A stretch of DNA of 64,000 bases, from NCBI RefSeq assembly GCF_002076895.1, contig NZ_CP020465.1:1302001-1366000 (forward strand). Direction: 5' to 3'. Made by a program: the position numbers and the translations under genes. The notes under the pieces were generated by a model. It saw only the letters and a program-made list of their open reading frames with translations, ran no database searches and had not been told where the DNA came from. Source of the stretch: Cognaticolwellia beringensis. GTDB lineage: Bacteria; Pseudomonadota; Gammaproteobacteria; Enterobacterales; Alteromonadaceae. Positions 13,736-14,793 of this stretch are shown here, one piece after another (positions within the stretch are counted from its first letter, which is position 1; the number at the start of each line of letters is the position of its first letter).

Positions 13736-14793
13736 TTCGAAGCGTATTGGGCAAGTTTTTTGTAGGTCAAACTTCAGTCCGTCAAACGCTTAGCAGACAA
13801 TTAATGCGATAGTTTGAATAATGCTTGCAGCGGGTTTTATTTTTTAACGCGCAATTAATAAAGTCATCCATTAAATCGGGATTAAATTGGGATTAAAGCT
13901 GATGGACTAAAGTCCAACCTACAAGTGCTTACGAGCGATAAAACAGAGTTAGCAGGTGTTTTGTAGGTCGGACTTCAGTCCGTCAAACGAATAGCAGACA
14001 ATTAATGCGATGGATTGAATAAAGCTTGCAGCGGGTTTTATTTTTTAGCGCGCTAGCTATTAATACAGATAACGAATAAATCAGGATTAAGCTGATGGAC
14101 TAAAGTCCAACCTACAAGTGCTTACGAGCGGTAAAACAGTGTTGGCAGGTGTTTTGTAGGTCGGACTTCAGTCCGTCAAACGCATAGCAGACAATTAATG
14201 CGATGGCTTGAATAATGCTTGCAGTGGTTTTTATTTTTTAGCGCGTTATTAATACAGTCATCCGTTAAATCGGGATTAAATCGGGATTAAATCGGGATTA
14301 AACCTGATGGACTAAAGTCCAACCTACAAGTGCTTACGGGCGATAAAACAGAGTTGGCAGGTGTTTTGTAGGTCGGACTTCAGTCCGTCAAACGCTTAGC
14401 AGGCGATTAATTCGATGGATTGAATAATGCTTTCAGCGGGTTTTATTTTTTAGCGCGTAATTAATACAGTCATCCGTTAAACCGGGACTAAACCGGAACT
14501 AAACCGGGATTAAACCTGATGGACTAAAGTCCAACCTACAAGTGCTTACGGGCGATAAAACAGAGTTGGCAGGTGTTTTGTAGGTCGGACTTCAGTCCGT
14601 CAAACGCATAGCAGGCGATTAATTCAATAAATTGAATACAACTTGCAGTGGTTTTATTTTTTAGCGCGCAATTAATACAGTCATCCGTTAAATTGGGATT
14701 AAATTGGGATTAAAGCTGATGGACTAAAGTCCAACCTACACAGGAACTACACGTTATTTAAGCGCATAAATACATTATTTTTAAGGGTAAGTT
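13736..14793. repeat. BIME-like array: five inverted REP pairs between glgB and pgm
   Basis: The whole 1-kb gap is built of five imperfect repeats of about 190-212 bp. Each holds one forward REP (A: GTAGGT, then stem CGGACT-TC-AGTCCG, then TCA) and one reverse REP (B, read on the minus strand: GTAGGT, stem TGGACT-TT-AGTCCA, TCA). A copies: 13762-13784, 13963-13985, 14156-14178, 14368-14390, 14580-14602. B copies: 13900-13922, 14093-14115, 14305-14327, 14517-14539, 14717-14739. The GTAG head and short hairpin are the mark of REPs mobilised by RAYT (TnpA-REP) transposases. A and B differ by a compensatory C-G to T-A pair in the stem. A1 is degenerate (AA for GG in the stem). No RAYT gene or ORF lies in the array. 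Likely effects are transcript stabilisation or termination after glgB. Confidence 0.9.
13871..14715. repeat. Nested 11-bp micro-repeats inside the REP modules
   Basis: Just before each B-type REP lies a run of an 11-bp unit, consensus AAATCGGGATT, in varying copy number: about two at 13871-13897, one degenerate copy near 14077-14090, three at 14265-14303, three (as AAACCGGGACT variants) at 14478-14515, and two at 14688-14715. Module lengths (201, 193, 212, 212 between successive A copies) differ largely by 11-bp steps, as expected from gain or loss of this unit by slippage. Confidence 0.8.

Follow-up and report, generated by a model that had tools for sequence, protein, structure and literature searches.

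Repetitive extragenic palindromic (REP) sequences, the REP-associated tyrosine transposases (RAYTs) and the insertion sequences (IS) connected with them are treated in a body of published work (Nunvar 2010, PMC2817692; Bertels and Rainey 2011, PMC3116915; PMC3733652; PMC3686654; PMC8049555; PMC12306157; PMC1525189). These papers report bacterial interspersed mosaic elements (BIMEs) tied to RAYTs, complementary changes in the stems, and REPINs (REP doublets forming hairpins) clustered in tandem with their flanks (PMC2817692, PMC3116915, PMC3733652 and others), as well as tail-to-tail spacers that are variable and head-to-head spacers that are conserved (PMC3733652), and IS insertion into REPs, including that of the IS4-family member ISRm22. 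Here, we describe an array of ten REPs located between the glycogen genes glgB and pgm in a 64,000-nucleotide window of Cognaticolwellia beringensis (contig NZ_CP020465.1, positions 1,302,001 to 1,366,000, forward strand; positions below are those of the window unless marked as chromosomal). The array is a well-documented but ordinary case of a known mobile-repeat family, and it very probably represents an old REPIN/BIME insertion that is common to related species, linked to a RAYT and expanded in place.

The REP array in the glgB-pgm gap

A pattern search allowing up to three mismatches located ten 20-base REPs, five per strand, between 13762 and 14739, against a mean of 0.01 matches in dinucleotide shuffles of the window. 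They alternate in orientation in five modules, as proposed in the original prediction, which had been made from the letters of the window. The interval named there, 13736-14793, is exactly the 1058-bp interval from the glgB TAA to the pgm ATG, and the NCBIfam order (glgX, glgP, glgC, glgB, then the array, then pgm and glgA) bears out the proposed splitting of the glycogen cluster. Both neighbours are on the same strand, the array being intercistronic. The parts are as follows:

13762..14739, unstranded: BIME-like array of five forward/reverse REP modules
13762..13781, + strand: forward REP 1, broken stem CAAAC/GTCCG, 3/5 pairs
13903..13922, - strand: reverse REP 1, TGG..CCA type
13923..13962, unstranded: head-to-head linker 1, 40 bp
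13963..13982, + strand: forward REP 2, CGG..CCG type
14096..14115, - strand: reverse REP 2
14116-14155, 14328-14367 and 14540-14579: head-to-head linkers 2, 3 and 4, 40 bp each
14156..14175, + strand: forward REP 3
14308..14327, - strand: reverse REP 3
14368..14387, + strand: forward REP 4
14520..14539, - strand: reverse REP 4
14580..14599, + strand: forward REP 5
14720..14739, - strand: reverse REP 5
14740..14793, + strand: pgm leader, its pgm-proximal part similar across aligned relatives
11492..13735, + strand: glgB, 1,4-alpha-glucan branching enzyme, upstream neighbour (NCBIfam PRK05402.1, 1013.9 bits)
14794..16446, + strand: pgm, phosphoglucomutase, downstream neighbour (NCBIfam PRK07564.1-1, 931.7 bits)

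All five reverse copies read GTAGGTTGGACTTTAGTCCA and four of the five forward copies read GTAGGTCGGACTTCAGTCCG, while forward copy 1 reads GTAGGTCAAACTTCAGTCCG and keeps 3/5 stem pairs. The stems originally assigned to the two orientations, TGGACT for the reverse and CGGACT for the forward copies, were thus found in every reverse copy and in 4/5 forward copies, but not in forward copy 1 (13762), whose stem is broken. The modules measure 153-172 bp from forward through reverse REP and are connected by the four linkers; among the five modules, 2/40 REP columns were variable vs 35/132 spacer columns (Fisher p = 0.0036).

Predicted RNA folding gave -9.9 kcal/mol for forward REP copy 2 and -3.1 for the broken copy 1, and a lone reverse REP folded no better than shuffles (-5.7, z -0.81). 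A 181-nt stretch holding one tail-to-tail module reached -53.7 kcal/mol (z -3.96) and a head-to-head REP pair -32.6 kcal/mol (z -5.71); two inverted REPs are thus predicted to be able to form a single long hairpin, as in a REPIN. An intrinsic terminator in each module was considered and rejected, with no terminator-like site within the array, as was an internal promoter in each module (between 13400 and 15000, three promoter-like sites vs 3.2 expected, the array holding two of the three). Downstream of glgA, an 899-aa open reading frame (ORF; 18469-21168) had no NCBIfam match.

The REP family across the genome

The chromosome of the source genome (G000) is one contig of 4,661,274 bp. The originally proposed pattern, with up to three mismatches, matched it 213 times (reversed control, 0), and the relaxed pattern GTAGGTNGGNNTTNANNCCN had 282 exact matches (reversed pattern, 0), so copies outside the window are numerous. 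The family is a many-copy extragenic palindrome with a GTAG head, and its REPs alternate within composite clusters, as in REPs and BIMEs of the GTAG superfamily; these genome-wide copies, the paired heads and the alternating clusters support the REP/BIME nature originally proposed. Typing was performed on 22 REP places from fetched stretches plus the window, 21 of them with at least two REPs. Most of these 21 clusters alternate in orientation and several include same-direction neighbours; the window array alternates throughout. The largest array found among those sampled has 23 alternating REPs (L189, G000:C1:942372-944135), and GGTG/CGCC stems occur in it.

For the 19 clusters with both neighbours typed by a simple ORF rule, nine lay between tandem, nine between convergent and one between divergent genes (p = 0.03 for 1/19 against an expectation of one quarter divergent). 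Excluding two clusters (134 kb and 376 kb) typed against an adjacent IS transposase ORF, the share was 1/17 (p = 0.050). The sole divergent cluster is the RAYT array described below, with a 103-aa ORF as neighbour.

Every GTAGGT in the 21 array spans was taken irrespective of pairing (n = 266 heads). Five Watson-Crick pairs were present in 222/266 and at least four in 251/266, whereas none of the 28 GTAGGT heads elsewhere in the same stretches had five. Covariation was scored on 40 of the 41 distinct 20-mers, non-REP heads included, with 500 shuffles: the score was 0.532 vs 0.190 in shuffles (0/500 reaching it; maximum of 0.145 in slid registers), and standard pairs occupied 83.5% of cells vs 63.5% (0/500 reaching it). 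Stem pairs 2 and 3 are nearly invariant G-C and pair 1 is C-G or T-A, while pair 4 is mainly G-C, A-T or C-G, and pair 5 C-G, A-T or G-C. The genome-wide covariation and the paired heads support constraint on the hairpin, in agreement with the selection originally suggested.

The reading on which that suggestion was based was not supported as put, however. The CGGACT and TGGACT stems had been taken as a compensatory change between copies, but among head-to-head neighbours (n = 108) a C-type REP (CGG..CCG) faced a T-type REP (TGG..CCA) in 93, with 14 C/C and 1 C/G; random pairing would give about half C/T (p of about 4e-16, a nominal value, as neighbours within an array are non-independent). 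Tail-to-tail neighbours likewise joined C-type with T-type in 89/109. This pairing across arrays indicates that the CGG/TGG contrast is the two-ended anatomy of the family, not a local compensation. Genuine compensatory differences do occur elsewhere: between arrays at the fourth and fifth stem pairs, and in all three reverse REPs of an orthologous array, in genome G006. Head-to-head neighbours keep a narrow distance (median of 62 bp with quartiles of 58-64 over the 108 pairs), tail-to-tail neighbours a wide one (median 64, quartiles 53-108). By eye, the linkers of several arrays look related (window, L037, L049 and L053), and the tail-to-tail spacers of L044, L046, L047 and L053 show a second small palindrome near GTTAAATTTCATTTAAC, beside the T-type REP.

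The RAYT gene and its distribution

The genome has six PF01797 matches. One is an open 150-aa ORF at chromosomal positions 412055-412504, with an HxH motif (HFH within MPDHFHGL), which scored 122.8 bits with NF047646 (REP_Tyr_transpos; cut-off 80) and 32.8 bits with PF01797 (cut-off 23), and which resembles TnpAREP 4er8 (E 1.5e-5). It combines the HxH motif of a Y1 transposase with a REP-specific subfamily score, as expected of a RAYT (TnpAREP), and lies inside a REP array with REPs on both sides, whose flanking stems (CGGCA and TGGGC) are other than those of the glg array. The original prediction was to fall if the genome held neither further copies nor a RAYT gene; both are present. The other PF01797 loci inspected (678, 681 and 2890 kb here, plus 13 in relatives) had no REP within 1.5 kb (0/16). 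At L054 (G000:C1:677000-683000), two PF01797 copies are disrupted by in-frame stops, with no REPs nearby.

The REP comparison covers 17 Colwellia genomes, G000 included; outside the genus only the neighbours of pgm were searched. A close RAYT homologue was present in six (G000, G001, G002, G005, G006 and G012), with GTAGG hairpins within 1.5 kb in 6/6, seen on one side only in G001. The copy in G002 has one in-frame TAA, and a further fragment is present there. The G012 homologue (39% identity; L179, G012:C27) adjoins a different REP type, GTAGGGGCGA, again with two stem types, GTAGGGGCGACTTYAGTCGC and GTAGGGGCGAATTTATTCGC, in both orientations, which fits the 'orthoswitch' described in PMC3686654. 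The NF047646 cut-off was passed by nine loci in seven genomes: the six homologues, two loci in G008 and one more in G001 (about 80 bits).

Exact REPs numbered 282, 3, 69, 69, 137 and 39 in the six genomes with a homologue (in the order given above), and 0, 3, 1, 0, 0, 263, 106, 3, 0, 0 and 0 in the 11 without, a significant difference (Mann-Whitney p = 0.010, 17 genomes). RAYT presence as a full predictor of REP number was rejected, since G010 (263) and G011 (106) break it.

An IS4-family element in REP stems

Eight identical copies of a 1288-bp IS4-family element (NF033591, 291 bits) were found, each inserted into a REP stem at an identical position; the accompanying 10-bp duplication reads GACTTTAGTC in five and GGCTTTAGCC in three:

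G000:C1 102773, 132707, 376285, 1207608, 1693439, 2235985, 2268439 and 4450194: IS4-family copies L136-L143

The window array has no copy despite five such target sites. The 10-bp target GRCTTTAGYC occurs 161 times in the genome, and 82 of the 86 occurrences in the fetched array stretches fall inside the 21 spans. Targeting of REPs beyond this core site is not strongly claimed: 8/8 insertions in stems gives p of about 0.005 on the 82/161 share, figures to which the element has contributed through its own target duplications, and unsampled arrays would raise p further.

The orthologous gap in Colwellia genomes

The closest named relatives by pgm identity are Colwellia sp. C1TZA3 (89%) and 12G3 (85%). 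A pgm with an identity of 89% or more is present in eight of the 17 genomes (G000 among them), and all eight show a REP doublet, intact or decayed, in the gap. Five modules are present in G000 and three in its sister genome G006; single doublets with a damaged reverse REP occur in G011, G012 and G013, and in G004 together with a long insert, while in G007 both REPs of the single doublet are degraded. By eye, the G004 insert (L148, reverse complement) has inverted ends, CCTGAACTCTGGATAA and TTATCCAGAGTTCAGG, inside the doublet, resembling a miniature inverted-repeat transposable element. In G010, six forward REPs, recurring every 76-77 bp, are accompanied by a broken reverse REP; among the six, one has the head GCAGG and another lacks a stem pair. 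The gap of G010 is identical in sequence to that of C1TZA3, and the two are probably the same strain. In Colwellia 12G3, glgB is separated from the first pgm ATG by 36 bp, which hold no REP.

In G006, the reverse REPs have TGGGC/GCCCA stems (3/3) vs TGGAC/GTCCA in G000 (5/5), both stem sides differing in every copy. Module identity is 87-91% within G000, 95-97% within G006 and 81-85% between them, indicating that homogenisation or multiplication of copies followed the split of the two lineages. A module tree had weak support inside groups and did not group the five G000 modules.

The two ends of the doublet have fared differently. In the six genomes besides G000 and G006, the glgB-proximal forward REP has five pairs in 5/6 (four in G007), and the pgm-proximal reverse REP has two to four pairs in 6/6. 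Differences from the window consensus amounted to 7/120 forward vs 24/120 reverse (p = 0.0017), with the first of the six forward copies entered for G010, and to 7/100 vs 17/100 without that genome (p = 0.048), both counts ignoring shared descent. A general bias towards keeping C-type rather than T-type relics was rejected: G004, G007 and G013 together have seven exact matches, four C-type and three T-type, leaving two and three when the two C-type matches at the glg site are removed.

Origin of the array and alternative explanations

The best explanation of these results is a BIME-type REPIN cluster, made up of non-autonomous elements of the GTAG superfamily that end in hairpins, with the RAYT at about 412 kb on the same chromosome as the likely transposase. 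A doublet would have reached the glgB-pgm gap before the species of these eight genomes diverged, entering through RAYT action on single-stranded hairpins, and the doublet with its flanks would later have been multiplied in situ, whether through RAYT-linked copying, through slippage or through unequal recombination. At the glg locus, G000 and G006, both of which have the RAYT, are the only genomes in which the two REP types are intact; the remaining six show partial decay.

Several observations weigh against this explanation. G010 and G011 are REP-rich yet have no close RAYT, and the NF047646 search gave nothing above cut-off in them; their assemblies are fragmented, and a RAYT gene may have escaped assembly or have disappeared recently. 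Conversely, G001 has an open RAYT but only three exact REPs, and G008, in which two ORFs barely pass the cut-off of NF047646, has none. The link between intactness and RAYT presence at the glg locus comes from a single lineage, G000 and G006 being sisters, and the stems there (CGGAC/TGGAC) are unlike those beside the RAYT (CGGCA/TGGGC), which means that recognition across variants has to be assumed. In the covariation test, two coarser measures were weaker: pairs changed on both sides numbered 5 vs 3.4 in shuffles (reached by 27/500), and further pair types 15 vs 11.4 (reached by 14/500).

A RAYT would play no part in the upkeep of the array if this were an ordinary tandem repeat that had lengthened by slippage. 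Module copies do take in linker DNA, in G010 it is another half-unit, about 76 bp long, that has multiplied in this gap, and REPs abound in G010 and G011, where no RAYT was found. Yet slippage by itself is very unlikely, given that REP columns vary much less than those of the spacers, that related REPs with covarying stems occupy 22 separate places of the sampled stretches, and that the reverse stems of the sister array changed on both sides in 3/3 copies. In Escherichia coli, BIMEs are reported to bind DNA gyrase, IHF or Pol I, and a chromosome-organising site of this kind would be compatible with the narrow head-to-head spacing (median 62 bp) beside the wide tail-to-tail spacing, and with arrays at the 3' ends of genes (1/19 divergent, p = 0.03; 1/17, p = 0.050). 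By analogy such a role may be imagined here too, but it appears highly improbable: promoter avoidance alone yields the same placement, and presence is patchy, 6/17 Colwellia genomes having no exact match to the relaxed pattern.

Escherichia coli REPs between malE and malF set enzyme ratios. In the same way, hairpins at the glg locus might stabilise the 3' end of the glgXPCB mRNA or cut read-through into pgm-glgA, thereby setting enzyme ratios, as the original prediction had tentatively raised. The intercistronic position between genes of the same strand and the predicted folds (-9.9 kcal/mol for a forward REP; -53.7, z -3.96, for the module stretch) agree with this, as does the unequal decay in six relatives lacking the same RAYT-REP pair, where the forward REP is fully paired in 5/6 and the reverse damaged in 6/6 (p = 0.0017). 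With the reverse REP broken in 6/8 genomes and the glgB-proximal hairpin fully paired in 5/6 of those, a 3'-end stabiliser is conceivable, this unequal decay being the sole hint of a host role at glgB. Against it, 12G3 has no REP in the gap and both REPs are degraded in G007; the G000 copy nearest glgB is the broken one, though four intact copies follow; the count of end differences ignores shared descent and falls to p = 0.048 without G010; and the array has no terminator-like site and promoter-like sites at chance number. The comparative evidence on relative enzyme levels is mixed, a host regulatory element seems unlikely, and an effect on glgB or pgm expression would be a possible by-product of the REPIN insertion favoured above. 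A narrower scenario, which we consider quite unlikely, is that after loss or change of the cognate RAYT the glgB-proximal forward hairpin alone was co-opted by the host as the 3' stabiliser of the glgXPCB mRNA and maintained through selection, while the pgm-proximal half decayed. A single REPIN would in that case have given rise to two halves, one domesticated and one dying.

Comparison with known systems

The BIMEs of RAYT-bearing bacteria (PMC2817692) have alternating REPs in tandem modules, GTAG heads, a RAYT beside a BIME and hybrid stems in which pairing is kept through complementary changes, all as found here. The GTAG-tagged palindromic repeats of PMC3733652 share the GTAG end, short TY-type loops, alternative complementary stem residues and head-to-head spacers better conserved than the tail-to-tail ones. 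The tandem REPIN clusters of PMC3116915 are also near-identical REPINs repeated with their flanks, with a doublet able to form a long hairpin, and clusters beside RAYTs are a further shared feature. Points of difference are that the glg cluster lies about 0.9 Mb from the RAYT and that this genome has up to 23 REPs in a single array. The host genus differs as well: Colwellia has 0 occurrences in the text of PMC2817692 and of PMC3733652, and no mention of it was found in the REP papers among the 15 of 221 papers listed, which is not proof of its absence from print. In contrast to PMC2817692, an orthologous BIME has been traced here across eight genomes, and the same gap offers a REPIN site that can be followed as tandem array, doublet, half-unit tandem and decayed remnant. 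With the locus available both in genomes that have a close RAYT and in genomes that lack one, two questions become testable there: do REPs stay intact because a RAYT is present, and does a host gene ever retain a REP hairpin once the RAYT is gone?
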